A stretch of 21,848 nucleotides of DNA from a virus. Shown here piece by piece: positions 3,001 to 18,700 of this stretch. The notes beneath the pieces were generated by a model. The model had not been told where the DNA came from, searched no databases, and was given only the letters and a program-made list of their open reading frames with translations. The position numbers and the translations under genes were made by a program. The stretch lies in the IMG/VR virus record IMGVR_UViG_3300045738_001503, positions 1 through 21,848 of that record, one strand, 5' to 3'. Within the stretch, counting starts at the first letter, position 1; every line of letters begins with the position of its first letter.

Positions 3001-6000
3001 GGTGTAGATCCCAGATGTGAGAAAGTTTTAGAGAAGATCGGTGTTCCGGGAGCGCTCTCTCAGAATACTGAGACGGACTTCTTTAAAATTGAAGAGATAA
3101 AACCAAAAATTATAGAATTTTATGAAAAGACACTTTGCAAAGACGTTTATGAGACTAAAACAGGCGGACAAGGTGCTACTCGTACTTCGTTATTGCAAGG
3201 TATGGTCAGATTGGTTATAAAAGTTTATACTCTAGAAATGTGTTTAGCTTCTGTAATCGCTTGGGACAGTTTTGATCTTGAAGATGTGTTTAAAGACACT
3301 GGAATGGCAGCGGTCGTCTTACAAAATATATCTCAAGATTTTGATATAGAATTCTTGTCTTTCTTCGCGACAGATATGTTAAGAAAAGAAAATAATTTAA
3401 CTGATATACAATTAGCAGAATTAAGATTAGGCGTTAACGGCGCGCCACAAAGTAGTATGGAATTTTTAATCGCCAAGGAAGCCGAAAGTATTTCTGGCAT
3501 TGTTAAAAGCATGTTCGTGAACAGTTTCCCGATTAGCACAGATTTACAAGTTTCCTTGCTAAAAAATTCTGATCCAGATTATATTCAGGACTTTTTAAGA
3601 GAGATCCCGGGCACCGCCCAGAACCTCATCGAGAATTATAATATTGAAAATTTTGCGGAAGCAGGCAGTATTACCGGAAGTAGCGGCCCCGGGGGCAGCA
3701 CCGGTGCCATTGAATGGATTTCGGATGTAAGAATACGAGACAACATTTATACTATGAATTACGGCTCGGGCATAAAAAATCTTTATGTTGGAATCGACGC
3801 GAATGTGGGCAACCTCCACTGGCGCGACAAAGAAGAAATAGATATATATGGATTATCACCAGAAAGAGGCGCAAGATCTCAAAATAACAAAAACTATTTT
3901 CACTCTTTACCGATGAATTGGTATCATGAACTAGTGGAATCCTATTACCCATATTCTGACTGGCAGAACTATGCCTGGAATTTAAATTCGGGTAATCCAA
4001 ATTACTCCACGGGCGAGAATTTTAATTCTTTCTATAATTCTCAACATTATATTTTTGGAAGGTCAGACGCATTCTCTTTTGAAAACAGCCCAGAGACAGT
4101 GCACGGAAACGAATTAAACAAAATTTTGGGCAATATAACTTTTGAGCCTTACGTTAGGATCGAAGATTGGGACGAGGGAGAAGAAAGAGATTTTGTAGCT
4201 GAAATTTACAGCAATCTTGATTCCAATGGAGAACCGTGCGACGAAGTTGTGTTGACAGCGACTTTTGATATCAAAGATTATTCAGATATTATAGATGAAA
4301 TCAACGATAAAAGAAAAGAAGAAAACAATGTTTTTAAAAGTCATATATACGATTACGTCCCTCTTCCTGTGTGGAGTCACTTTTATAATCGTTATTTCTT
4401 AAAAGCGATTAACGAGTCAGAAGCACTAACTGGCTTGTTCGACAATTTTGGTTTAAAGCCATTCTTCAAAAAGGTTAGTTTTGGAATGCGCATGAGCTAT
4501 TCAACTGCTAATCCAGAGTTGGACAAAGAGCCCTTAATCTCAAGTTTGGATACACGGTCATCAACGACACCTTTGAAAAAGGTTAAATCTATCCTAGGCC
4601 GTAGGCCGTATTTTTCTGGCGGAGATGAGCCCGACATGCTATACGAGCTACAAATACCAATTGTTGAAATAGAAAAAGAAGTTAAGTCAATTGATAGGAC
4701 ACAATCATTTGTTGTGGAAAATAGTGATTTAATTCCATTTAGCGAGTTAGGCGCTGGCATACAAGAAAATTGGTCTTTCCATCATTATAAAAATCCTCAC
4801 CAATTCTTCTATAACAATCTGGCCAACGGAATGCTACAAGAAATTAAAAATTCTCCTGAATTTAAATTAATGTACGACTATCTTTTCCCGATGAGAAGAT
4901 ATATGGCCATGGCATCGATTATGGCATCTGATGGGCTCTCCAAATTTATTCCCAATCCTACGGATATTTTAGATAAGACCAAACAATCGTTGTCCAACAT
5001 CATTGATAACATTTCAAATTCTACAGATTTTAAACACTTACCAGATCCAATAGCTAATTTATTGGCAGACCGCGCCATGCGTGCAGAAGCTGGAACGGCC
5101 GCCAAAGAACCTGATATGACTAAAGAAATCTTAAAGATTGTCCTCAGAACTCCGCTGCTTGTCCTCAAAGGATTCGTAGAAATTACAGATCCAGCTGTTA
5201 TAACTGCCAAGAGAATTATAGATATTTCAAGAATTATCGCTTCTCTTACCTTGGCTGCAATTAAACAAGGCGTGGCAACTGCGAAAAGAATAATACAGTC
5301 CGGCATCGACGCTGCGAAACAAATTTTAAAGCAGTTAGAAATGCAGCTTAGTTTTGGAGTCGGATTTGCGAAGTCAGCTGCCGCGGCCTTGCCGAAAGTC
5401 ACGATTCCGGCCACCGCCGCAAGCACAGAAACAGTCCCGGCCCAGGCCGGCTTCGGGGCCGGCGGTGTGATTAAAAATGAAACAGGAGGGCCCTTATATA
5501 TACAAATAAGCAAGAACGGTGAACCTCATGATATTCATATTCCTATTGGAAAAGAATATACCCTACAGTCCGGAGAAAGTTTTGCCGGCTTCGATGCGAT
5601 GGAAAAAACTATCCCGGGCCAGCCTGGTGGACAAATAGACCTTGCTAGTCTCGTAGAAATTGATACAAGCGACGCAGATATTGCAAAATGGGTCTTTAAT
5701 ATAACTGATCCACCAACTGATCCATCACCTTTTGGCGATGACAAAAAAGCAGAAGAGCAATGGGAAGAATTTAAAACTGAGTTTGAAAATTTACGAGGCT
5801 TACTAGACGATTATATAGAAAGCAAGAATATGCTTAAAAAATTAGAAGAGAAAAAACGAGATCTAGAGGAAAATGCAGAAGAGGACATAGCAGAAGCAGA
5901 AAGAAGGTTAAAAGCCGCGTATCAATCTCCATATTTACTTCCAGGCATTTGGGCGGCCATGATGCCATCGGTTATTCCTTTCGGCGGCGGCGTCCACCCA

Positions 6001-6138
6001 TTCCCGATGCCTATACCGTTTGTAAGTACTGTTCCTGGCATGATTTATCTCGCTATACTATTTATAGATGCTATAGAAGAAAAAATGCACGACGACATGC
6101 AAAACGCAAAAGATCCAAATTGTGAGGATCAACTTTAG
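1..6138 (+). CDS. Giant virion-associated protein of unknown function, probably 5'-partial
   Basis: An open frame of 2045 codons runs from the first base of the window to a TAG at 6136. The first codon is ATG but nothing upstream is visible, so the true start may lie outside. Residues 14-22 have the D-x-D-x-D-G-x-x-D spacing of an EF-hand or thrombospondin type-3 calcium loop. Most of the protein is Asn/Asp/Tyr-rich and matches no domain I can name. Residues about 1705-1790 form hydrophobic or amphipathic helices in which TAKRII occurs twice. Residues about 1915-1975 are a charged coiled coil, followed by a hydrophobic Pro/Gly-rich stretch (about 1977-2030) ending in an acidic tail. The gp25 gene starts 12 nt downstream, so a role in the tail or baseplate is likely from position. 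The C-terminal layout recalls unnamed giant proteins from marine phage contigs (memory, unverified). GC-rich islands break up the AT-rich frame. A tape measure role is possible but not supported. Confidence 0.85.
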   Translation: MVGAYVNSKLSAADGDGDGIVDWGALGSAGPSAYINEQIAAEYSKEIKILQLGALTIFDDQIFKKPFLSDNKNRYAHFPGNMDKYYPSDNNPITNTRSYKKHKNVLSRSWPLNTKLKDIDNRPWVWYYMMMAYTGIFLTIDHDNEGNYPRRSFPNTWLRDHDFWNDELDPAYPDALYDGTNFKPYNSDYVDWWKLYAKSSGLRKLVKIVRKILLETQYWSKKKSKEGFWNTSNGFGKKDKNNKTWEFNLAIAFMELTIAEAAGLQYDRIGKFDNLPDYFSNPNNAVIFGTYQNPMINVKAIGQGAQEQTFPRGYYGTVSVQWKRPSSIPASSGIKQNLWIIKDHYYGEVHDLSKTEAAIAGGLGGDNDPAGGVYLPLDVLAAAAGAVDEALNDSPELIAYKGEHVRTVSGPGAVGWIGRIHGHVLKTLTEGHGDAGFKQNGRWKDYEFYYPHFLAFERIFRDTESPLNAPPQQIIESFSGDGEKVNKELYNALSFVPDSLMPRALRAEAGSAGLQARLVADASNIQSSGLYNPNILKYELPSLMARVKLFGPDATAQQIQDAIGAANPEAQLSTLADQIEITNLDKSLVYQNTITPISENSNIQINEVKNISKLVKGTVAPFPEYLIEEAGGVRAAAHAAAVAANLNAAYEATAATTAQYDYDPGAPTGYPSDEGGYLGGAFFIKYLDEEEYSLADQNERSAALNKQFENIVAMEFHAFDLNKLKAVLTTDDPKFAGNGWVYDSINPVLDMYEELPNPKKKTPKGAHTSAQKDIALLLAGLNEMLTSAYEYSIFVTEQEMLVLYETLKNTSQEEFLALDTAAAYAESAAAQAEALEAAVTPAKYLPGDATIPPAVIVADNRITNETYNFNFAGKLAPDVHDLIESLYPGDKSLSANFASDYKKLYSETTLEQTNYKAQIFGQLLSKKLNDKLQEYLPSGHDFNEEKLDKIKEFLTIEGFSALQYAYSTQMFAKMKSSRLQNRKFMKKVWKKILKSPLVSDGVDPRCEKVLEKIGVPGALSQNTETDFFKIEEIKPKIIEFYEKTLCKDVYETKTGGQGATRTSLLQGMVRLVIKVYTLEMCLASVIAWDSFDLEDVFKDTGMAAVVLQNISQDFDIEFLSFFATDMLRKENNLTDIQLAELRLGVNGAPQSSMEFLIAKEAESISGIVKSMFVNSFPISTDLQVSLLKNSDPDYIQDFLREIPGTAQNLIENYNIENFAEAGSITGSSGPGGSTGAIEWISDVRIRDNIYTMNYGSGIKNLYVGIDANVGNLHWRDKEEIDIYGLSPERGARSQNNKNYFHSLPMNWYHELVESYYPYSDWQNYAWNLNSGNPNYSTGENFNSFYNSQHYIFGRSDAFSFENSPETVHGNELNKILGNITFEPYVRIEDWDEGEERDFVAEIYSNLDSNGEPCDEVVLTATFDIKDYSDIIDEINDKRKEENNVFKSHIYDYVPLPVWSHFYNRYFLKAINESEALTGLFDNFGLKPFFKKVSFGMRMSYSTANPELDKEPLISSLDTRSSTTPLKKVKSILGRRPYFSGGDEPDMLYELQIPIVEIEKEVKSIDRTQSFVVENSDLIPFSELGAGIQENWSFHHYKNPHQFFYNNLANGMLQEIKNSPEFKLMYDYLFPMRRYMAMASIMASDGLSKFIPNPTDILDKTKQSLSNIIDNISNSTDFKHLPDPIANLLADRAMRAEAGTAAKEPDMTKEILKIVLRTPLLVLKGFVEITDPAVITAKRIIDISRIIASLTLAAIKQGVATAKRIIQSGIDAAKQILKQLEMQLSFGVGFAKSAAAALPKVTIPATAASTETVPAQAGFGAGGVIKNETGGPLYIQISKNGEPHDIHIPIGKEYTLQSGESFAGFDAMEKTIPGQPGGQIDLASLVEIDTSDADIAKWVFNITDPPTDPSPFGDDKKAEEQWEEFKTEFENLRGLLDDYIESKNMLKKLEEKKRDLEENAEEDIAEAERRLKAAYQSPYLLPGIWAAMMPSVIPFGGGVHPFPMPIPFVSTVPGMIYLAILFIDAIEEKMHDDMQNAKDPNCEDQL
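31..99 (+). other. GC-rich in-frame island 1 (Asp/Gly/Ala coding)
   Basis: 57 of these 69 bases are G or C (83%), within a gene whose ordinary stretches can be as low as 27% (2701-2760). It encodes a Ser/Ala/Asp/Gly-rich segment that includes an alternating Asp-Gly run with the spacing of a calcium-binding loop. Codons end almost only in G or C. The frame is intact on both sides. Confidence 0.8.
1071..1170 (+). other. GC-rich in-frame island 2 (Gly/Ala coding)
   Basis: 77 of 100 bases are G or C. The segment encodes a Gly-Gly/Asp/Pro stretch followed by an Ala-rich run near residues 379-390, between Asn/Lys/Tyr-rich sequence of normal AT-rich codon use. High GC continues more weakly to about 1265. 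The high GC also opens a long spurious reading frame on the opposite strand. Confidence 0.8.
1507..1536 (+). repeat. Copy 1 of the decapeptide repeat RA[LM]RAEAG[ST]A
   Basis: Residues 503-512 read RALRAEAGSA. A near copy, RAMRAEAGTA, lies at residues 1691-1700 of the same protein. The shorter AEAGS also occurs at residues 1219-1223, and EEAGG at 628-632. Most of these sites are followed by flexible, GC-rich coding sequence. A maturation-protease site is one possible reading; shared linker sequence is another. Confidence 0.5.
1888..2040 (+). other. GC-rich in-frame island 3 (Ala-rich)
   Basis: About 75% of the bases are G or C (112 of the 150 bases 1891-2040). The segment encodes an Ala-rich stretch with clustered His/Ala, then an Asp/Tyr/Gly/Pro-rich stretch ending in Gly-Gly. 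It starts right after the EEAG motif at residues 628-631 and returns to AT-rich coding at about 2045. Confidence 0.8.
5071..5100 (+). repeat. Copy 2 of the decapeptide repeat RA[LM]RAEAG[ST]A
   Basis: Residues 1691-1700 read RAMRAEAGTA. They match the copy at residues 503-512 at eight of ten positions, with conservative changes (L/M, S/T) at the other two. The two copies are 1188 residues apart and use partly different codons, so this is not a recent DNA duplication. Confidence 0.5.
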
Positions 6139-6142
6139 GGGG
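6137..6142 (+). promoter_or_regulatory. Shine-Dalgarno for the gp25-like gene, overlapping the upstream stop
   Basis: AGGGGG begins inside the TAG stop of the preceding giant gene and lies 8 nt before the ATG at 6151. It is the strongest ribosome binding site in the window and fixes the gp25 start. Its overlap with the stop codon points to coupled translation. Confidence 0.7.
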
Positions 6143-6150
6143 CATAACAA

Positions 6151-6546
6151 ATGAACGGTATCGGGCCAAAATTACCACTACAAAGAGACGATGTAAATGG
6201 CAACTATACACTCATTACTAGTTACGCCGAAGAGATAAAACAAAATTTTAAAAACCTTCTTTTAACTTCACCAGGTGAAAGAATGATGAATCCGGATTTT
6301 GGTGTTGGTTTAAGAAGTTTTTTATTTGAACCGGCACAAAAAGTAACCGGGATGATTAGACAAAGAATAGCAAGTCAAGTTTCTAGATATATGCCGTTCA
6401 TAAGAGTAAATAAAATACTTTTTAATCACGGGCTTGATCCTTCTACATCGGCCGATTCAAGTGTCCTATCCATAATCATTGAATATGAAGCTCCTAGTAT
6501 AAATTTGCAGTCTAGCTTGCAGATACAAGCTGAGGATATAAACTAA
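6151..6546 (+). CDS. gp25: Baseplate wedge protein, gp25 / gpW family
   Basis: A 131-residue protein of the length usual for T4 gp25 and P2 gpW. In contractile-tail phages, family members sit in the inner baseplate wedge, bind gp6/gpJ and help nucleate the sheath. The family signature is at residues 40-55: a Ser-Pro-Gly-Glu-Arg turn, then N-P-x-F-G-x-G-L-R. In T4-like and P2-like relatives the same region reads pGer..P.fG.gl. The N-terminal 30 residues lead into a helix (Glu-Glu-Ile-Lys-Gln-Asn-Phe-Lys) that precedes this turn in relatives. The start at 6151 follows a strong AGGGGG site with 8-nt spacing. The stop TAA at 6544-6546 directly abuts the next ATG. Despite the historical lysozyme label for this family, no catalytic residues can be argued from the sequence. 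A structural role is the confident call. Confidence 0.94.
   Translation: MNGIGPKLPLQRDDVNGNYTLITSYAEEIKQNFKNLLLTSPGERMMNPDFGVGLRSFLFEPAQKVTGMIRQRIASQVSRYMPFIRVNKILFNHGLDPSTSADSSVLSIIIEYEAPSINLQSSLQIQAEDIN
6532..6536 (+). promoter_or_regulatory. Shine-Dalgarno for the gp6/J-like gene
   Basis: GAGGA lies inside the last codons of the gp25-like gene, 10 nt before the ATG at 6547. The start codon directly follows the gp25 stop, so this site supports that start and suggests translational coupling. A TATAAA string at 6537-6542 lies right after it; I take that as chance. Confidence 0.6.
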
Positions 6547-8343
6547 ATGCCAAAGAAAAGTAAAAAATTAATAAAATACACCGATCGAGAATTTAATGAC
6601 ATCAAAAAAAGCTTGGTGAATTATGCGCAAAGATATTATCCTGATGTGCACAAAGACTTTTCTGAGGCTTCTTTTGGCTCGTTGATGCTGGATACGGTAG
6701 CATATGTCGGTGACATGCTTTCTTTTTATTTGGATTATCAAACAAACGAATCGTTTCTAGATACTGCAATCGAATATAACAATATTTTAAGATTAGGAGA
6801 GCAAGTGGGATATAAACAACCTCTTAGATCTAATTCGTTTGGTCTGGTGTCCATATATGTTATCGCCCCCGTGACATCCGGCGGATCATCTCCAGACGCT
6901 GATTATTTACCTGTTTTAGTCAGAGGCAGCAAGTTCTCCACTACCGCCGGCCGAATTTTTTCTTTAATAGACGATATTGATTTTGCAAACCCCGACAATG
7001 AAGTCGTTGTAGCTACTTCTAATTCACAAGATGGAAAACCAACATCGTACGCTGTAAAAACAATAGGCAGAGTTATTTCCGGAGAAGTAAAAACCGAAAC
7101 TGTAAGTGTTGGCAATTTCACAAGATTTTTGACAATTCCACTGTCAGATCCAGATATTACGGAGATCGTGTCTATCACGGACTCCGAAGGTCATGAATAT
7201 TTCGAAGTTGATTATTTATCACAAGACACAATATTCAGATCAGTTGTGAACAAAGATTCAGAGACCAGAAGATATATACCGGATGTTATGGTAACAACTT
7301 CTGTGCCAAGAAGATTTACTGTTTTTAATAGTTTTGGAACAATAAATATTAAATTTGGCTATGGTTCGGAAGAAAACCTCAAAACAGATAACACAATTCA
7401 CCCATCAAACGTTGTATTAAAGATGCATGGTAGAGATTACGAAACTGACAGAACATTCGATCCTTCAAAATTGGTAGAGACAAGCAAATTTGGCATTGCA
7501 CCGGCAAACACAATTCTTACTATAACATATAGAACGAACACAGTCGAGAACGTGAATGTCGCTTCACGAGCCCTTTCTGAGGTCGTTCAGCCTCTTTTTG
7601 TTTTTAGTTCTAACGCCACAAATAATTCAAAAATAGCGACTGTTCGCGATAGTTTGGAAGTAGTTAACGAATCACCGGTTATAGGGGACATATCTTTACC
7701 TACAGTTTCTGAATTAAAACAAAGAGTTAACGATGTTTTCTCTTCGCAAAACAGAGCAGTAACTGCTAGTGATTATGAGGCCTTGGTTTACAGGATGTCC
7801 CCTAGGTTTGGTTCAGCGAAGAGGGTTAAAATATACAGAGACCATGATTCTTTCAAGAGAAACTTAAACTTGTATGTTTTGTCCGAAGACGCCGATGGAA
7901 AATTTATGACAAGCAACCAGTTACTAAAGAACAATATAAAAACTTGGCTTAACCATTATAGAATGATAAACGACACAATTGACATATTAGATGCCAGAAT
8001 CATCAATATTAAAATTAATTTTGTCGCAGTCGTTGATTATAACCAGGATAAAATAGGCGCCTTGACAGCAGCAATAACGGAAATAGAAGAAATGTTTGAA
8101 CAGAAAATGGATATCGGACAGCCGGTATATATATCAAAAATATATGATGTTTTAAATAACTTAGATGAAATTGTTGATGTAACAGACGTGAAAATAACAA
8201 ACGAGACAGGAGGTTTATATTCCGACCAGGCATTGAATCTTAAAGAATACATTTCCGCAGATGGGAGAATTTTATACGCTCCAGAAAATACAGTTTATGA
8301 AATAAAATATCCTGATTTAGATATTAAGGGAACTATTAGATAA
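6547..8343 (+). CDS. gp6: Baseplate wedge protein, gp6 / gpJ family
   Basis: A 598-residue protein, close to T4 gp6 in length. In T4, gp6 dimers form the ring of inner wedges that holds the baseplate together and carries it through the contraction switch; P2 gpJ is the shorter counterpart. Residues about 10-90 are the typical N-terminal segment: Y-T-D-R-E-F, then acidic helices with G-S-L-M-L-D-T-V-A-Y-V-G-D and F-Y-L-D-Y-Q-x-N-E. This region is shared with gp6-like proteins of large marine myoviruses. Residues about 255-285 form a beta segment around a F-G-x-G motif. Residues 399-412 carry the Baseplate_J hallmark N-R-A-V-T-x-x-D-Y-E followed by a long basic strand. The C-terminal third alternates helix and strand as in gp6. 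The gene directly abuts gp25 and overlaps the next ATG by one base (TAATG). Confidence 0.94.
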   Translation: MPKKSKKLIKYTDREFNDIKKSLVNYAQRYYPDVHKDFSEASFGSLMLDTVAYVGDMLSFYLDYQTNESFLDTAIEYNNILRLGEQVGYKQPLRSNSFGLVSIYVIAPVTSGGSSPDADYLPVLVRGSKFSTTAGRIFSLIDDIDFANPDNEVVVATSNSQDGKPTSYAVKTIGRVISGEVKTETVSVGNFTRFLTIPLSDPDITEIVSITDSEGHEYFEVDYLSQDTIFRSVVNKDSETRRYIPDVMVTTSVPRRFTVFNSFGTINIKFGYGSEENLKTDNTIHPSNVVLKMHGRDYETDRTFDPSKLVETSKFGIAPANTILTITYRTNTVENVNVASRALSEVVQPLFVFSSNATNNSKIATVRDSLEVVNESPVIGDISLPTVSELKQRVNDVFSSQNRAVTASDYEALVYRMSPRFGSAKRVKIYRDHDSFKRNLNLYVLSEDADGKFMTSNQLLKNNIKTWLNHYRMINDTIDILDARIINIKINFVAVVDYNQDKIGALTAAITEIEEMFEQKMDIGQPVYISKIYDVLNNLDEIVDVTDVKITNETGGLYSDQALNLKEYISADGRILYAPENTVYEIKYPDLDIKGTIR

Positions 8344-9893
8344 TGGCGATTAAAAAATATAAAGCGACAAAAGACAATACGTTAACTAACGCTTATAAGC
8401 TAGATCTGTCCACCCGCGCCACCGGTTCTAACATGGGCGCTTCTGATATTTTGGAGGTATTTTCGATTTATGGCCAGCAAACTACAAGCTCTGCTGAACT
8501 ATCAAGGACCTTGTTAGAATTTCCGATTAGTACCATATCTACAGATAGAACAGCCGGCACGATTCCTGCGTCCGGAAGTGTTAATTTTTATTTAAGGGTC
8601 TACAATGCGAGACATTCCGAGCAATTACCTAGCAATTTCACGGTTAATGTTATGGCTGTTTCGCAGTCGTGGCAAGAGGGAATTGGCCTGGACATGGAAT
8701 CGTATAAAGATGAAGTTAAAGATTCGATTGAGGGCTCAAATTGGACAAATAGACAAAAAACGACAGCATGGGGAAAGCCTGGTGGCGATTACCATTCTTC
8801 TTCATATGTTGCAGGCGAAACAATGCCGAATTATACATACACTTTTGATGAAGGGTATGAAGATATAGAACTTGATATCACTGCGATGGTAGAAGAGTGG
8901 GCGGCGAGCACTCAGACAAACAATGGTTTGGCCGTGTTTCTGACGTCGAGCCAAGAGGCGTATGTATCTAATTCTTCCGGAGTAGATTCCGGACCCGTTT
9001 TACACAATACGGCCGGCCAGAAGACAAGTTATTATACAAAAAGGTTTTTCTCAAGATCTAGCGAATTTTTCTTTAAAGTTCCGGCGATCGAGGCCAGATG
9101 GGACTCTAGAACAGAAGATCAGCGAGGATACTTTTTTTACAGTAGTTCTTTGGCGCCTGCAGTAGACAATTTAAATACAATTTATCTTTACAACTATGTT
9201 AGGGGGCAGTTAACGAACATTCCCGCAGTTGGAACCGGAGGAATACTGGTTAGTATATACTCTGGTTCTGCTACCGACGTTGCACCTTCTGGCTCCAAAT
9301 TAGCCCTTTCCGTCGGCGGCGACGTAGCTAGCGCCGCAGATCTGAATGTGACCGGCGGTTATGTTTCAGCCGGCATATACTCGGCTTCTTTTGCCTTCAC
9401 AGGTTCGACAACATTAAAAACTATATATGATGTTTGGCACAGCGGAAGTGTTGAATACAATACCGGCTCTATTAAGCCAAAAACACTTTCCTCTCCCAAT
9501 TGGAACACTTACGAACAATATGTTTCAAAAATAACCAATCTTAAGCCAAAATATGTAAAAGATGAGGAAGCAAGATTTAGGGTGTTCACAAGGCTAAAAA
9601 ACTTTAGTCCGACAATTTATAATGTTGCTTCTAAAGAAATTGAAAAAGAGATTATTCCAAGCGCATCATTCGAAATTATAAGAATGGTTGATGAAAAAAC
9701 GGTTATTAATAATTCTACTGGTAGCACAACTTATCATACATACTTATCTTACGATAATTCTGGAAGCTATTTTGATTTAGACATGTCTTTGCTAGAACCT
9801 GGTTACATGTATGGTGTTAAATTAAGTTATTATGTCGCCGGCCAGTGGAGAGACCAAGAAGAAATGTTTAAATTTAGGGTTGAAGATAATTAA
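8343..9893 (+). CDS. DNRLRE-domain virion protein, probably baseplate periphery or fibre attachment
   Basis: A 516-residue protein. Residues about 1-280 fit the DNRLRE (CBM96-like) beta-sandwich pattern. In order they show an N-terminal D-N-T-x-x-N-A run, N-M-G-A-S-D before a strand, an E-L-S-R-x-L-L-E-F-P strand, F-Y-L-R-V-Y-N, then S-W-x-E-G and W-x-x-P-G-G-D-Y. D-I-T-A-M-V-E-E-W follows, and the domain ends with a P-A-I-E-A-R-W-D strand. DNRLRE domains occur in secreted carbohydrate-related and surface proteins of bacteria; sugar binding here is inference. Residues about 280-516 look like further Ig-like or beta domains rich in Ser/Gly/Thr/Tyr. The ATG at 8343 shares a base with the gp6 stop, and AAGGG about 12 nt upstream is a weak ribosome site. 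The position right after gp6 is where T4 and P2 place wedge or tail-tip proteins. Four in-frame GCCGGC sites are present. Confidence 0.9.
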   Translation: MAIKKYKATKDNTLTNAYKLDLSTRATGSNMGASDILEVFSIYGQQTTSSAELSRTLLEFPISTISTDRTAGTIPASGSVNFYLRVYNARHSEQLPSNFTVNVMAVSQSWQEGIGLDMESYKDEVKDSIEGSNWTNRQKTTAWGKPGGDYHSSSYVAGETMPNYTYTFDEGYEDIELDITAMVEEWAASTQTNNGLAVFLTSSQEAYVSNSSGVDSGPVLHNTAGQKTSYYTKRFFSRSSEFFFKVPAIEARWDSRTEDQRGYFFYSSSLAPAVDNLNTIYLYNYVRGQLTNIPAVGTGGILVSIYSGSATDVAPSGSKLALSVGGDVASAADLNVTGGYVSAGIYSASFAFTGSTTLKTIYDVWHSGSVEYNTGSIKPKTLSSPNWNTYEQYVSKITNLKPKYVKDEEARFRVFTRLKNFSPTIYNVASKEIEKEIIPSASFEIIRMVDEKTVINNSTGSTTYHTYLSYDNSGSYFDLDMSLLEPGYMYGVKLSYYVAGQWRDQEEMFKFRVEDN

Positions 9894-9919
9894 AAATGTA
9901 TACAAAGTTGGGCTGATTT

Positions 9920-12900
9920 ATGGGCATTAAAGATCTATTTGACAAAGGACATTCTCTTAAATTTGTTAAAAACAAAACTAAAGAAGATCTTGCCGAGTCT
10001 GTAGAATCATATCGCTATATTGACGCATATAACGACAGGAAAGAGTTATTTCGTCCGGACGTAGATTTTGCTACTGCTTCGAACTTTGCTAGATTTGGAC
10101 TGGCAGAAGAATATTACGACACCGCTATAAAAAGAATATATGAAACATATCCTTATGACGGCTCCCAGGCAGAGAAAGTCGAGTGGGAAAACGAAAGCAC
10201 TTATCTAGATCTTTTTGTGTTTGAGAACGAATACCCTAGAACAAGCGGCTTTGTAACGATGAACTTGACATCATCTTTTACGGGTGATTTTAGTTCAAAT
10301 GTCAAATTATCAAGCGCGCCTCAATATGTGTTTTTAAAAGGTGGTCCACATCCCGACCCTGGTGGAGATTACAAAAGTGATTTCTCTGCCGGCCCCTCTA
10401 AAAAAGGTGTTTCGAAAGCTAACATTTATGATACGACCTATCAAAGAACTAATAACCTAGAGTTAGACTTAGCTAAGGGCGTTACTGTTGAGACGTGGAT
10501 GAAAAAAGAAGGTTGGGCTTCTACTGGCTCAGTACACCATGAATACATCTTTCACTCTTGGAATTCGGGCTCGACTACAAGTTCTGGTTCTTTGAGGACT
10601 TACGTCTATGGAGAAACAGACGATTCAAAAGGCCTTATACATTTAAGAGTGGTATCTGGTTCTACAGAACTAAGTTTCGACCATGATACGGGCCTGGACA
10701 CGTTGGCGGATAGCAGCTGGCATCATTATGCTTTGACAGCCAAGACTAGTGGAACAGATACCGTTTCCAGTCTATATGTTGACGGTGTTCATAAATCGAA
10801 ACTAACCTTATCCAGTACTACGATCAACGAAGTCACCGGCGCGATGATTGCTTCAATCGGTGGCCTCGTCGGGCCTCTGACTGACGCCGGCACCGTCGGA
10901 AAAGGTTGGGGCAATATAGTATCTGCTTCTTTCGACGAGTTCCGATATTGGAAAACAGAGAGGGACGCTCAGCAGATAGGCCGTTTTTACATCGATCAAG
11001 TAGGCGGTGGCACGAACACTGACAACGTGAAACATGATGACATAAACAACAAAGTATCCCTTGGAGTATATTATAAGTTTAACGAAGGCATTACGGGCCG
11101 TGCATCAACTGATTCTACAATATTAGATTATTCAGGAAGAATCAGTAACGGTACATTCGTGAACTATTCTTCAACGTGTAGAAACACCGGTTCTGCAATT
11201 GTCCTTTCTTCGGCCGCGACAAAAGAATTTTTAGATCCAATTGTTTATTCTTATCACCCGAGTGTAAAGAGCCTGCTTGCGGACAAAAAAGCTAGAGGTT
11301 CGATGCATGACCACGAGAATGCATCGTCTCTTTACAAATCGATGCCGGCGTGGATTGCCGAACAAGACGAGTCAGAGACTAAAAACTTAAAATTCTTAAC
11401 TCAGATAATGGCTAGTTTCTTCGATGATCTGTATCTTCAAATAGAGAAATTACCTAGATTAAAAGACATAAACTATCCAGATGACACTTCTTACGAGAAA
11501 CCTTTACCTTTTGCAGAAAGATTATTAAGTTCACGAGGTTATGAAGCACCAGAACTTTTTGCAGACATGTCAGATTTAGCCAAATATCTTGAGAGAGACG
11601 AAAAGAAGTTATTCGAAAAGAAGCTTTATGAAGTAAAAAATATTATATATCAAAACATTTATAACAACCTTTCTTATATTCAAAAATCAAAAGGAACTTT
11701 TAAGTCGTTAAGAAACTTTTTGAGGTGTTTTGGCGTTGACGAAGAATTAATAAAGCTAAATATTTATTCTAATAATGATATTTATGAGTTGAAAGACAAC
11801 ACGACGAACACCAGTGTTCAAAAATCTTATATTGATTTTGATGATGCAGAGACTAGACTTTCATCTTCCGCCGGCAGTTACAGCAATGCCTACAGCGCAA
11901 CGGCGTACCAATACTATGATTCTACCGATTCTAATTCTCTTTCTTACATTCCTGCCGCCACGGAGTCCCTGCTGACCGGTGCAATGATGACAATCGAAAC
12001 AGAAGTTGTTTTTCCAAAAAGATCCATTGTAGATGACAACAACTACAAGCTCTTTCCTTCACTTTCATCTTCTATTTTCGGACTCCACGCATGCGCCGCT
12101 TCCAACACAGACTTATCTTTTGATTCTTCGGACACAATTAATTTCAATGTGTATGCTTCAAAACCAGACGACGACCCAAGAAACGTAAAGTTTGTTTTGT
12201 CGGGATCAAGCGTTTTTTCCCCGATAGAAAACTCGAATACGTACGCCGGTACTTATGATAATGAAAAGTGGAATTTGGCATTTCGCTTGCGACCAACAAA
12301 AGCATCGACAGACACATCTCCTACACTAAATTTTAGCGTGGGCTTTTTACTTCCAACTGCGTCGGCATATACGTACGAGCTTTACGGGGTAAATTATGTA
12401 TCAAACATTTTACAAAATGAGTTTACCGTATCTGGTACGATGAGCCTGGCAAACGCGACCACGTTCTTCACACAACCAAAAAGGATATTTTTGGGCTCCG
12501 ATCGTACAAACTTTACTGGCTCTGTAGTGTCCTATTCGGATGTTAAAGTTTCGTCGACACGCGTTTGGCTGGATTACCTCTCTAACGACACGATCAAGGC
12601 CCACGCCAAAGATCCCAACTCTTACGGTACCCTGCAACCTTATAGAAATGCCAATGATTCTTTAAACACAAATTTTGTTCCTCAAATTTCAACTTTGATT
12701 TTAAATTGGACTATGGACAATCTAACAGGATCTGACGCGTCAGGCCAATTCTTGATCGAAGACTTCGCCTCTGGATCGACCGATCAAAAGTTGAAATTTG
12801 GAGATCACTGGGCCTCACCAATTTCCAGATACAATTATTCCGGCCGCGGCGATAATTTTGTCGCAGATGCTAATTTAGCTAATCAGGCTATAGATATAGA

Positions 12901-15694
12901 TTTTGTCCAATCAGCTAAGTTAAAACTACCAGAGGTCGTAAATAGTGACGACATGATAAAGATTTTAACGCAGCAAGATGAAATGGTGTTTACTAGGGAC
13001 ACAAATTATGTAGAACATTATTTGTCTGTAGAAAAAAGCATGTATCAAACAATTTCTGAAGAAATGCTGCGCTTTTTTGCCACTGTCAGCAACTTTAACA
13101 ATTTAATTGGTGAGCCAGTAAATAGATACCGGCCATTTTACAAGAAAATGCAAAAGTTACGAGAACTTTTCTTCGAAGGTGTCGAGAATGACAGGCTAGA
13201 TTTAGAGAAGTTTATAGAATATTTTAAATGGATCGACGATGCTATAACAATAATGATCGCGCAGCTTATACCTCTATCTTCTAATAATACAGAATTCTTA
13301 AGAAATATGGTCGAAAGTCATATTTTAGAAAGAAATAAATATTGGACAAAGTACCCAACTTTAGAAGTTAAAACAAAAAGTCCTGCGGCCTCATTAAGGG
13401 GTATCGAGGAATTAAAATATAGTTGGAAGTTTGGTCATGCTCCTTTGTCGCCGGCCGAGAATACAAATCAAAATCAAAATTGTTTATGGTGGAAACAAAG
13501 GGCCGAGAGAAACGATGTGCTCTCGTCTGGAGATACAAGTGTAGACAGTAATAAAAACGATATATTAAAGATAGTGATCACAGAAGTCACAGGCTCAGAA
13601 CCTACCTTGTTAACAGCCGCGTCGGTCAAATATGACAAGAGTTATTATGACATCAGAAGTCTTGCGCGCCCGATTGAATTAGAAGTTAAGAGATCTATTA
13701 ACTTCAAAGGCGGCGGCAATTCTCTGAGCAATATGACTCATGATTACTATAAAAGTGTTATGAAGTGGGGGAGCGACGATGATTTTATTTTCCTGGATAT
13801 TGATAACGAAATAAAAGATACTGTTTGTGATGATCAAGAGACACCCCCGGAGCTGGAAAAGAAAAAGTTTAAGATTCAAGCGTTAACCATGCTGGCAGAG
13901 GAGACTGCAGATTCAAATGCACAAGGCACCGGTAAAAATGATCTAAAGTATACAGACGCTAAAAGTACCTTACTGCTTCCTTTCAGTATATATTCATCTT
14001 CGATAGACGTCGCGGGCTATCAGGCTCTATATTCAAGTCAAATTGGTATAGATTTTACTAATTTGCATGAAGATAAATACGGTTTTGATGCTGAAATTCC
14101 CATGCAAGGGCCCTTCACCGAGAAATATGTTGGCGGCATGCAGCACCGCCATGTGGGACTCAATCAAGGATCGGATGATCGCTCAACGCGTCCTGAAGGC
14201 TGGCACTTACAAGAATTTTTAGATACTACTGAAACAGAATACATTATACCACCCGAGTTCTTCACCGACGCGACGACAACTGCTACAACTGATGTTTCTA
14301 TCCTTGTTTTACCAGAAGGATCAGTAGCAGGAGACCCAAGTCCATATGAATATTGGAGGAATGGCGCCGGCGCAGATAATCCATGGACTTTTCTATCTGG
14401 CCCAACACCATCCGCCGGCACAGGCCCAAATTCTGGTAAATATGCATATTGTGAAGTACTGCCGTCAAAAGTTGGGCAGACGTTTAGTTTGGCGACTCCT
14501 TTAATAGACTTAACAGAAGTAAAAAATGAAGAGGTCTATATAAGCTTCCGATATCATATGCACGGACTAGGTATGGGCAATTTAAAAGTCCAAGCCTCAA
14601 CAGATCGTAATTTCGAGTCTGGTGTGGAAGATCTTTTGGTTGATTGGGATGGCTCCACCGACCCCGCCGGGAGATCAACTTATATGTCAGGACAGCAGCA
14701 CCTCCACGCTTCAGATTCTTTTACGCAGGCGCGCATATGGCCTACAACTGGCAACGGCCTTACAAACTGGTATGGGAAACGATTTTATATAAGATTTCTC
14801 TATACTGCTGGTATTTCTCACCTAGGCGATTGTGCGATTGATAACGTTGCTATGTGGAAAAAGACCGGCGGCGGTGTGCTCCAAAACGCCTTTAAATTAT
14901 TTAATCCAACATACGATGACCATAATAGACCCACCGCGTTATATACGCGAGATACAATAGCAAAGCGACCAGTCAATATTCGCAATATTCAAATGACTGG
15001 AACTTCACCCACAAAAGCAGGAAATTATCTTGATAGATACGAGTATGTTAATACCACCAGCCCAGAAGCCAATGATCCTTATTTTGTTAAAAATACGGCA
15101 CAAATCACGAAGACCACGACCTTGTACACCGCCGGCAGCATTCAGGCGATTCTCTCCATGCCGCCGACGGCCGTCCCGATGGTGTCTCCTACTGGATACA
15201 ACCCTTTGTTTACTTTACCTGATCGAACCTTCTTAACTGGAAGTATAAGGAACAGAACTAGAATTAAAACAAGATTTAGTTCGCCAGGCGGCTTTGAAAC
15301 ACTTTCAAGAGGCTTTTTAGATCCTGCTCACGAAACTTTTTCCCCCAATAATGCTTTAACTTTTAGAAACGCCTGGCCTAGAAAAGTGTATAATTCACAG
15401 TTACAAGCACATCAAGGACAATACGGTGTTAGTACACATAACACAGCCACAGCACGCGTCTTTGGTTCCGAGGCCGTAGGCTCGATCAATTCAAGCGATT
15501 ACACGATCTCCGGAGATGCGTCAAAACACAAGATACACAGGAATAATATTGAAAGGCTGGAGTTGTCCGGCTCAACAACGGACTTTATTGGGATGACTGT
15601 TATAACTGCATCTTTTTTTGACAACGCCTTTGTTTCTCACATGATACCAAGAACGGACCAACAAACAAGATGGATAACAGCGTCGATAATTTAA
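9920..15694 (+). CDS. Giant LamG/tail-protein-I-like/MAM mosaic baseplate protein
   Basis: A 1924-residue modular protein. The N-terminal 100 residues carry an acidic/aromatic region with D-V-D-F-A-T-A-S-N-F-A-R-F-G and Y-P-Y-D-G-S. Residues about 180-362 form a LamG/ConA-like jelly roll: V-T-V-E-T-W-M, then S-S-W-H-H-Y-A-L-T, V-D-G-V-H-K and F-D-E-F-R-Y-W. Residues about 480-625 are helical and hold K-G-T-F-K-S-L-R-N-F-L-R near residue 591, like the R/K-K-G-T helix of P2 tail protein I. Residues about 689-905 form a second jelly roll ending R-V-W-L-D-Y-L-S. A long helical block follows (about 1030-1150). Residues near 1395 carry a Q-G-P-F-T-E-K motif shared, from memory, with marine phage LamG proteins. 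Residues about 1470-1650 are MAM-like. The start lacks a clear Shine-Dalgarno. Position two genes after gp6/J suits a gpI or gp7 role, with jelly rolls as surface-binding decorations (inference). Confidence 0.9.
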   Translation: MGIKDLFDKGHSLKFVKNKTKEDLAESVESYRYIDAYNDRKELFRPDVDFATASNFARFGLAEEYYDTAIKRIYETYPYDGSQAEKVEWENESTYLDLFVFENEYPRTSGFVTMNLTSSFTGDFSSNVKLSSAPQYVFLKGGPHPDPGGDYKSDFSAGPSKKGVSKANIYDTTYQRTNNLELDLAKGVTVETWMKKEGWASTGSVHHEYIFHSWNSGSTTSSGSLRTYVYGETDDSKGLIHLRVVSGSTELSFDHDTGLDTLADSSWHHYALTAKTSGTDTVSSLYVDGVHKSKLTLSSTTINEVTGAMIASIGGLVGPLTDAGTVGKGWGNIVSASFDEFRYWKTERDAQQIGRFYIDQVGGGTNTDNVKHDDINNKVSLGVYYKFNEGITGRASTDSTILDYSGRISNGTFVNYSSTCRNTGSAIVLSSAATKEFLDPIVYSYHPSVKSLLADKKARGSMHDHENASSLYKSMPAWIAEQDESETKNLKFLTQIMASFFDDLYLQIEKLPRLKDINYPDDTSYEKPLPFAERLLSSRGYEAPELFADMSDLAKYLERDEKKLFEKKLYEVKNIIYQNIYNNLSYIQKSKGTFKSLRNFLRCFGVDEELIKLNIYSNNDIYELKDNTTNTSVQKSYIDFDDAETRLSSSAGSYSNAYSATAYQYYDSTDSNSLSYIPAATESLLTGAMMTIETEVVFPKRSIVDDNNYKLFPSLSSSIFGLHACAASNTDLSFDSSDTINFNVYASKPDDDPRNVKFVLSGSSVFSPIENSNTYAGTYDNEKWNLAFRLRPTKASTDTSPTLNFSVGFLLPTASAYTYELYGVNYVSNILQNEFTVSGTMSLANATTFFTQPKRIFLGSDRTNFTGSVVSYSDVKVSSTRVWLDYLSNDTIKAHAKDPNSYGTLQPYRNANDSLNTNFVPQISTLILNWTMDNLTGSDASGQFLIEDFASGSTDQKLKFGDHWASPISRYNYSGRGDNFVADANLANQAIDIDFVQSAKLKLPEVVNSDDMIKILTQQDEMVFTRDTNYVEHYLSVEKSMYQTISEEMLRFFATVSNFNNLIGEPVNRYRPFYKKMQKLRELFFEGVENDRLDLEKFIEYFKWIDDAITIMIAQLIPLSSNNTEFLRNMVESHILERNKYWTKYPTLEVKTKSPAASLRGIEELKYSWKFGHAPLSPAENTNQNQNCLWWKQRAERNDVLSSGDTSVDSNKNDILKIVITEVTGSEPTLLTAASVKYDKSYYDIRSLARPIELEVKRSINFKGGGNSLSNMTHDYYKSVMKWGSDDDFIFLDIDNEIKDTVCDDQETPPELEKKKFKIQALTMLAEETADSNAQGTGKNDLKYTDAKSTLLLPFSIYSSSIDVAGYQALYSSQIGIDFTNLHEDKYGFDAEIPMQGPFTEKYVGGMQHRHVGLNQGSDDRSTRPEGWHLQEFLDTTETEYIIPPEFFTDATTTATTDVSILVLPEGSVAGDPSPYEYWRNGAGADNPWTFLSGPTPSAGTGPNSGKYAYCEVLPSKVGQTFSLATPLIDLTEVKNEEVYISFRYHMHGLGMGNLKVQASTDRNFESGVEDLLVDWDGSTDPAGRSTYMSGQQHLHASDSFTQARIWPTTGNGLTNWYGKRFYIRFLYTAGISHLGDCAIDNVAMWKKTGGGVLQNAFKLFNPTYDDHNRPTALYTRDTIAKRPVNIRNIQMTGTSPTKAGNYLDRYEYVNTTSPEANDPYFVKNTAQITKTTTLYTAGSIQAILSMPPTAVPMVSPTGYNPLFTLPDRTFLTGSIRNRTRIKTRFSSPGGFETLSRGFLDPAHETFSPNNALTFRNAWPRKVYNSQLQAHQGQYGVSTHNTATARVFGSEAVGSINSSDYTISGDASKHKIHRNNIERLELSGSTTDFIGMTVITASFFDNAFVSHMIPRTDQQTRWITASII
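14327..14869 (+). other. MAM-like jelly-roll domain within the 1924-residue protein
   Basis: Residues about 1470-1650. Trp1489 starts a W-T-F-L-S-G-P strand, then a Gly-rich turn and A-Y-C (Cys1511). A T-P-L-I-D-L strand follows, then the diagnostic Y-H-M-H-G-x-G-M-G-N-L at residues 1545-1555. The domain closes with G-D-C-A-I-D-N-V-A (Cys1638), like the G-D-x-A-[IL]-D-D of MAM domains. Only two cysteines are visible where animal MAM domains usually have four. MAM domains mediate protein adhesion in animals and occur in some bacterial secreted enzymes; receptor binding here is inference. Confidence 0.65.
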
Positions 15695-15730: not shown

Positions 15731-18700
15731 ATGGCTTTAAGTGGATCATTAAATTTTCTAAGCGCGAGTATAACAGGATCAAACAATATTAATGTGGACT
15801 TTGTTGGTTTAAACACGTTAATTGTTGATCCAATGTCTAGGTCTTCTAATCAATTAGGACATGAATTTACCAGTGACTCATCATTATATTATAATAATAG
15901 TGTCGACGCCCAGGGCGGAATACAAGCAACAGCAACTGTCACCATTACTGATCTTACTGAAATCAATAATGGTGATAAAGTCAACTTAATCGCTACTGAT
16001 ACTACCTCTCATGATTTTACAGCCGGCTCCATCGCCGGCGCCGGAACATGGGTCGCTGAAACAAATAATAATACAACGGCCACTAATTTAGCAGCGCAGA
16101 TTAATGCAAATGCAAAGTTTACTGCTTCTGCCGCCAGCGCCGTCGTTACAATCACCCAAGCCACGGTCGGCACCACGGGCCCCGATGGCAATACCACTAT
16201 TACTCTCACAGATTCTGGAGCTGCTGGTATGTCTAAAACAGATTTTACCGGTGGTACTAACAATTCAATACAGCCTAATCAGCTAAACAGCTTGTTATTA
16301 AATCGTAACGGCCCTTATCAGCACCCTTCTTGGAAGCAATACAGAGGCGGAGAACATCCTGTTGCGAGAAAGTTGCGCCTTAACAACACAATGTCAATTG
16401 ATGCAACTTTTGCTGATTCTATTGCTCGTGAACAGCAAAAGAAACAGCTAAGAGACAAACTGGAAAACGATATACATGAGGACGTAAACAAACATTTTGA
16501 ATCTCTGAATACCTCTTTAAGAGACGCGTCCACCTCAAATCCAAAATTATATCAGCAGCCATCGCTTCAACAGTATTATGAACCATCTGTATTAAAGGCG
16601 CAGAAACCTTTTATATATGATGTGCTACCGGGCAATTTTAGAGTTCGTTCAACTTTAATGAACCAGATGGTATTTTTTGAGAATAAAGAGATAAATCAAG
16701 CGCTTAACATAGCTGGAACCGATCGGTATACGAGTTCGTTTTCTGGAGTACCGACAAAACGACCAAAACAAGAATATTATAATCTTATAACAGCCGCCAA
16801 AGATCACGGCGCTCACGGATTTATATATTCTGAAACTATTTTTCCTAAATCAATCAACGCTTTTAGACCCTACAAATTACAGAAGCTGTCTTATGAAGAA
16901 ACTAGCGGAACAGGCGCAAATGGATACGACAGAGCAGTTAACAGAAGTTTTTGGAGAGATTCTCAGCCTTCGTTGTCTTCCAGCATTTCGTCTGATGGTA
17001 CTTCACGGTTAAGAACAAATAGCGTTGCGCTAAACTCGCAAGATGTTATTCAAACAATAACGAATCTGAGCGCCTCCAACTACGAGGGTTATTACAACTT
17101 GCTACCCCCGGGCGGCGGCGGCCGATCTGGAGGTGCCCCTCTGGAGTGGAATCACACGTATTACTTTATGGAGCCTGGAATAATTGTGCATCATGGAACC
17201 GATACAACAACCGGATCCGTCGGCGCCGATGGCCTTCCAACTGTAGATGTAGAATCATCAGGAGCATTTGTTACTTTAGAAAGTTATCAACCTCATCCAA
17301 TTTCTCTTTTGAGCATGTGGCCTCTTGATCCTCGACCTGATATTTATAGTTCACCGATTTATCCCTATTTGACTTCAAGCCATGGCGGAAAAGGACTGCA
17401 GATCGGCCTTACTCCGCACAGGATGAAAGAGGCCGTCTCGTTGATCGACGGGTCCACGGGCGCCTCGACAATATACTACTTTCAGACAATCTCGCCTGTA
17501 TTTGATAAGGTAACAAAGATGACACCCGAAGAGACCCCTGTCCACGTCTATGGCCCCTCGACGGGCGACTACGACGGAGCGTACCCGAACCGTTTATACC
17601 AGGTCCTGCCGAACGCAACCGCCTCTTATGGACAAATTCAGAATTTAATGACAGGCGCCGCTGGTGAACTGGTTTATAGTACGAAGCCGACAATGTTCTT
17701 CCACAAAACCGGGTCAGAGGACAACGATATTCTAGGTTATCATGCCCAAACCGCATCTTTACAATATAACAGACATACTTTTCCATACAATACACCATTT
17801 TATGCCACAAACAAGGTGAGAGGTAGAAATCCATTCTACAATTCATATTCTGACTTTGCACAAGACATGAAACTCATTGGTCGCGATTATAGTTATGTGC
17901 CGGAGTATAAGACAGCCGACAGTCTAAAATATTATTATGAGAGATATTTTAAGGGTAAGCTTGATGATAAGTTGCATACTGAGATTTCTTTAACTAAAGA
18001 TTTTGATCAGAAAAAATCTTATGATTCTTTTTATGACTCACAGGCTGGTACAGAGGCGCTAGGATCCGGAGGATCCGTGAGCACGCTCAGTGCCGCTAAA
18101 ATAATAAAAAGAAATGTAGAATTTCCAACTTCAAGGCATCCAAAAGATTTTAAACTAAATTTTCTAACGATCGATGGCGCTTTCGTGACAGCCAGCGCAG
18201 ATGTCGAGAACTTTTCCGGATCTTCTGAAAGCCCGACAGCGTTTAAATATGTGAGCTTGACAAAAACAACCGAGGTCTCTACCTTGAAGGACCAACTGGG
18301 GTATTCGGATACCAAGATCGCGATTAGCCATCTACAAAATTCTTCTGGAACAATTTTTAATGAGGCATTTTCTCACACAGATACTGGTGAAATGTCTAAC
18401 CTTCTTGCGAAGCCACTAAACAAAACTTTTGATACAATCCCGCGTAGAATAACATTCACTGCCCATGGGCTTAAAAAATTAAGACCAGAAAAGAACTTTT
18501 ATCCAGTTACAAAAACTGTTGACGTGGGTAACAAATTTAAACAATTTATATACAATAATTTACAAGAGGGCCTGGTTCCGGAACATGGTGACGGACAAAC
18601 AAATGACAGAATAGAACAAGAAGGTCAAAAAAACGGCCAGTTACAGTCATTTTTGGAACCATTTTTTGCGCCAGGCATTTTATACAATTCAATAAAATCA

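Follow-up and report, generated by a model that had tools for sequence, protein, structure and literature searches.

Carrier protein and gene neighbourhood

We analyzed a 21,848-nucleotide stretch of viral DNA, referred to below as the window (IMG/VR virus record IMGVR_UViG_3300045738_001503, positions 1 to 21,848), in which a long open reading frame (ORF) encodes, near its C-terminus, a domain resembling the MAM domains of animal adhesion proteins. This ORF, the carrier (9920..15694, 1924 amino acids [aa]), encodes a probable distal-tail or baseplate-periphery protein. The MAM-like jelly-roll domain itself occupies 14348..14863 and, together with a linker, makes up an optional module, which we consider a probable adhesion decoration of the phage tail. 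The carrier, its domains and motifs, and the gp25- and gp6-like genes lie on the + strand.

Upstream of the carrier, the window encodes a gp25-like baseplate wedge subunit (6151..6546), which matches phrog_261 (E 4e-15) and phrog_43 (E 3e-11), directly followed by a gp6-like baseplate wedge subunit (6547..8343) that matches phrog_219 (E 2.5e-17) and shares 32% identity with the baseplate wedge protein of phage immuto. The domain thus lies near the C-terminus of a protein two genes past gp6, as the initial annotation had placed it, and in the homologous contigs L001-L003 gp6-like ORFs are likewise followed by homologues of the carrier. A conserved core of the carrier (approximately residues 445-1150; 11252..13366) is common to proteins encoded a few genes past gp6 in the isolated phages Mel-JY01 and immuto, with hhalign E-values of 6e-7 and 5e-8, respectively. 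A literature search on phage immuto yielded no paper promising experiments on this homologue. A search of PHROGs with the carrier ORF gave no match. Between the gp6-like gene and the carrier lies an ORF (8343-9893), part of which resembles the disaggregatase-related repeat domain (PF06848), with a score below the cut-off (E 8e-6).

Sequence and predicted structure of the domain

The region 14327-14869 is free of stop codons and holds both motifs on which the MAM assignment had been based: YHMHGLGMGNL, the motif of the central strand in the MAM pattern (14552..14584), and the closing strand GDCAIDNV (14825..14848), which corresponds to ...DIAIDDV in MAM proteins. Both align with MAM proteins; the ORF, its coordinates and the motifs are as originally described, and the resemblance to MAM exceeds chance. 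When the 181 aa of this region were compared to Pfam-A, MAM (PF00629) was the sole family matched (E 1e-4), as had been anticipated, but the score of 22.6 bits falls under the curated cut-off of 26.4; the match spans positions 11-100 of the 158 profile positions, leaving the second half of the domain unmatched. Only MAM-bearing proteins were found with phmmer in the PDB, with the scavenger receptor SR-C first (E 2e-5), followed by MDGA1, enteropeptidase and neuropilin-1 (NRP1) at E-values of 0.016-0.22, each weak alone.

Four scans of IMG/VR provided carrier homologues on numerous metagenomic contigs, and 25 distinct domains from these viral homologues were used for alignments and profiles. 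Pfam MAM was matched by 23 of the 25 (best E 1.5e-7), and among ten domains scored singly, those of L002 (28.4 bits), L023 (28.3 bits) and L057 (27.8 bits) lay above the Pfam cut-off. Searching the PDB with the 25-member profile returned the same kinds of MAM chains at 7e-7 to 2e-4, and the central Y-H-M-x-G and closing A-I-D strands, which align with those of SR-C and neuropilin-1, are kept across the phage family. All confirmed MAM matches among the IMG/VR homologues sit in this one carrier protein, at the same site. PHROGs gave no meaningful match to the MAM-domain set, and tblastn of the domain against isolated phage genomes found none, even at E 10 with an approximate consensus-like query from the alignment. 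Bacterial and archaeal genomes, scanned twice, gave no relative and hence pointed to neither a host nor a cellular donor.

The fold was predicted with AlphaFold2 using the 25-row alignment, in a model that replaced an earlier three-sequence model with a predicted local distance difference test (pLDDT) score of 72. The resulting model is almost all-beta and has a pLDDT of 89.4 and a predicted template modelling (pTM) score of 0.85. With this predicted model as the query, MAM chains came out on top in Foldseek, and MAM structures took all of ranks 1-18 in a VIA-align 2 comparison to the PDB, with Z-scores of 12.0-15.1; the best match was again SR-C (Z 15.1 over 153 residues, 2.7 A root-mean-square deviation). 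The comparison with MAM jelly rolls for which the initial annotation had called thus came out in its favour, and the predicted model supports a MAM jelly-roll fold for the domain.

The cysteines set the domain apart from its animal counterparts. Animal MAM domains such as that of NRP1 contain four disulfide-bonded cysteines, forming two disulfides (PMC5104691), and the two cysteines of the phage domain had been taken for two of these four. This proved wrong: the first (in YAYCEV, 14450..14452) and the second (in GDCAID, 14831..14833) both align to isoleucines of the SR-C MAM domain (YMYIE and SDIAIDDV), and none of the 25 sequences has a cysteine in the middle-strand column that aligns with the canonical CxxF cysteine. 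Since the cysteines stand at positions that are not cysteines in MAM, and the CxxF column lacks one, the domain is not a classical four-cysteine MAM domain. The first cysteine (Cys54) is kept in 23 of 25 homologues, 7 of which have I, V, A or L at position 181, that of the second; a disulfide between the two as an obligate feature of the domain was therefore rejected. A partial calcium site is possible by reference to NRP1 residues E651, D685, N691 and D796. Candidate ligands are an acidic residue at position 20, found in 25 of 25 sequences, and Asp184, found in 22 of 25, which is in register with NRP1 D796 if the last strand is aligned ungapped (model residue 191 = chain residue 803). In the variable loop after GTGP, the 25-sequence alignment showed no conserved counterpart of D685.

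Presence and absence of the module

The module, consisting of the linker and the MAM-like domain, covers 220 aa (14225..14884). In L003 it is cleanly missing: exactly 220 residues are gone, and the flanks still align. L052 also lacks it at the same site, and both L003 and L052 retain the rest of the C-terminus. In nearly all members of the family, the module is inserted at one and the same site.

Other insertions were observed in the carrier proteins. Optional Laminin_G_3 domains are inserted in the C-terminal part of homologues near residues 1749 and 1890 (L011, E 1e-43; L031, 4e-25; L062, 7e-12), and an insert of 135-167 aa is found in homologues near residue 1841. The N-terminal part of the studied carrier contains a probable LamG-like domain (10517..11000, approximate limits), with a weak match to Laminin_G_2 (E 0.14); the profile columns of this region match a LamG-looking insert of L100 at 7.5e-8. 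Furthermore, a small mobile module of about 100-170 aa, with a pattern around 'NLAAQINANAKF...VTITQATVGTTGNTTIT...KTDFTGG', is present at about 15890-16260, close to the beginning of the large ORF that follows. It was also recognized by eye at insertion sites of homologues (L015, L025, L026, L052 and L100), and a Pfam search of the L015 and L026 copies gave no match. In L100 and L104 (ORF 3537-11678, 2714 aa), a LamG-type insert is apparently interrupted by several copies of this small module.

Relationships of the module and of its carrier

To compare the history of the module with that of its carrier, we correlated the pairwise identities of successive 90-residue segments with those of the carrier core across 22 MAM-bearing members. 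Most carrier segments reached r values of 0.45-0.75, whereas the MAM region, taken in two halves, reached only 0.25 and 0.15; the last carrier segment (1836-1925) was also low (r 0.30). Segments of comparable divergence to the MAM region still had r values of 0.57-0.75. The same decoupling is seen for the studied protein itself. Its backbone (residues 1-1436) is nearest to those of L006 and L008 (80% and 79% identity), while its MAM domain shares only 58-59% identity with theirs but 66% with those of L026, L002, L057 and L060, whose backbones share 63-65%. Approximately unbiased (AU) tests disfavour trees in which the studied MAM domain groups with the MAM domains of the proteins closest to it in backbone (p 0.024 and 0.032). 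Such decoupling is what an exchanged module would be expected to show, and exchange of the module is the simplest reading of these relationships.

Interpretation

We propose that the segment is probably an optional, exchangeable MAM-like adhesion decoration of the distal tail, with a putative role in binding the host surface. In this proposal, the carrier would sit at the periphery of a contractile-tail baseplate with the module exposed, and the module would make weak, repeated and reversible contacts with glycans or proteins of the host surface at adsorption. LamG-type modules elsewhere in the protein would act together with it, and lineages would swap the module so as to keep up with host surfaces as these change, in a way similar to the gain of carbohydrate-binding insertions by evolved Dit proteins. 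The virion position, exposure, ligand and benefit of the module are thus inferred. Surface binding had also been suggested by the initial annotation; the optional presence, the decoupled evolution and the company of LamG domains all fit adhesion, but they do not amount to proof of binding. The broader idea that the MAM-fold module is a swappable host-recognition part, with lineages exchanging MAM and LamG modules at fixed baseplate-associated sites, we put forward more tentatively.

Several points weigh against this proposal. The initial annotation named the carrier a baseplate protein, and the gp25 and gp6 neighbourhood agrees with that, but its membership of the baseplate would follow from synteny; a comparison of the carrier to T4 gp6-gp12 (hhalign, single T4 sequences) gave nothing convincing, with gp7 at E 0.71. 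The close homologues are all metagenomic contigs. The groups used in the AU tests were taken from the backbone tree but named after both trees had been seen. Finally, a reduced correlation could also come from fast divergence with no recombination involved; as the only cause of the decoupling, fast divergence seems less likely, because similarly divergent segments keep their correlation.

The most serious alternative, which we nevertheless regard as unlikely, is that the module has a structural role, as a spacer or an assembly contact, i.e., a jelly roll for protein-protein interaction within the virion, such as fibre docking or subunit bracing, that makes no contact with the host. A constant insertion site in nearly all members is what such a part would be expected to have, yet L003 and L052 do without it although their C-terminus is otherwise kept, and the module has evolved out of step with the very backbone it would need to fit. 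We consider it more improbable still that the domain is a generic jelly roll (of the carbohydrate-binding module, cleaved-adhesin or choice-of-anchor J type) that came to resemble MAM by convergence rather than by homology. The next folds after MAM in VIA-align 2, i.e., reelin (Z 11.0) and Eph ligand-binding, carbohydrate-binding and cleaved-adhesin structures (about 10-10.7), do match, three homologues match choice_anch_J (best 1.2e-5), and the MAM cysteines are missing; however, the profiles choose MAM in nearly all members, three of them over the Pfam cut-off, and a gap of about 1 Z lies beneath the 18 MAM structures. That an unrelated fold carries the motifs by chance, as the domain's own score under the curated cut-off might suggest, is hardly credible in view of the family-wide profile matches and the confident model, which speak strongly against it.

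Comparison with known systems

Phage tails are decorated with Ig-like, BACON and carbohydrate-binding domains, and both tail decoration and prokaryotic MAM domains are already known. In the open-licence literature, we found no report of a baseplate-associated protein carrying a MAM-type module that is optional and apparently exchanged. With a MAM module that comes and goes at a single site, and whose history is decoupled from that of the protein carrying it, the phage tail toolkit would gain a new adhesion fold, and MAM-type folds would be seen to circulate among phages.

With the MAM family (PF00629; SR-C, enteropeptidase, neuropilin-1, meprin and RPTPmu), the phage domain shares the predicted jelly roll at Z 12-15, the YHMxG strand, the closing AID strand and invariant aromatic residues. 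It differs from animal MAM domains in having no cysteine at the canonical column examined, and its set of calcium ligands is not clearly conserved; its carrier is a phage protein of structural type, whereas the animal domains occur in membrane or secreted proteins. The description of the domain as eukaryote-like was overstated, given that a 2007 ocean survey (PMC1821046) described MAM domains of marine bacteria and that homologues of the carrier domain match the InhA-like MAM (PF20773) and choice-of-anchor J (NF038128) models, which represent a related fold class from bacteria. The former model is matched by the domains of L048 and L049, near-identical divergent homologues that lack the first cysteine, and the latter by the three members mentioned above; the studied domain itself matches neither.

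The closest experimentally tested parallel is the evolved Dit of skunaviruses, whose carbohydrate-binding insertions restore infection of exopolysaccharide-producing cells and aid adsorption (PMC10688798). The carrier protein and tail type are different, and the effect on adsorption was measured for evolved Dit. The two systems share an optional domain insertion in a phage protein, which here would be a distal-tail protein by synteny, with some relatives carrying it and others not, and relatives with and without the MAM-like module offer a natural comparison for testing the role of tail decorations.
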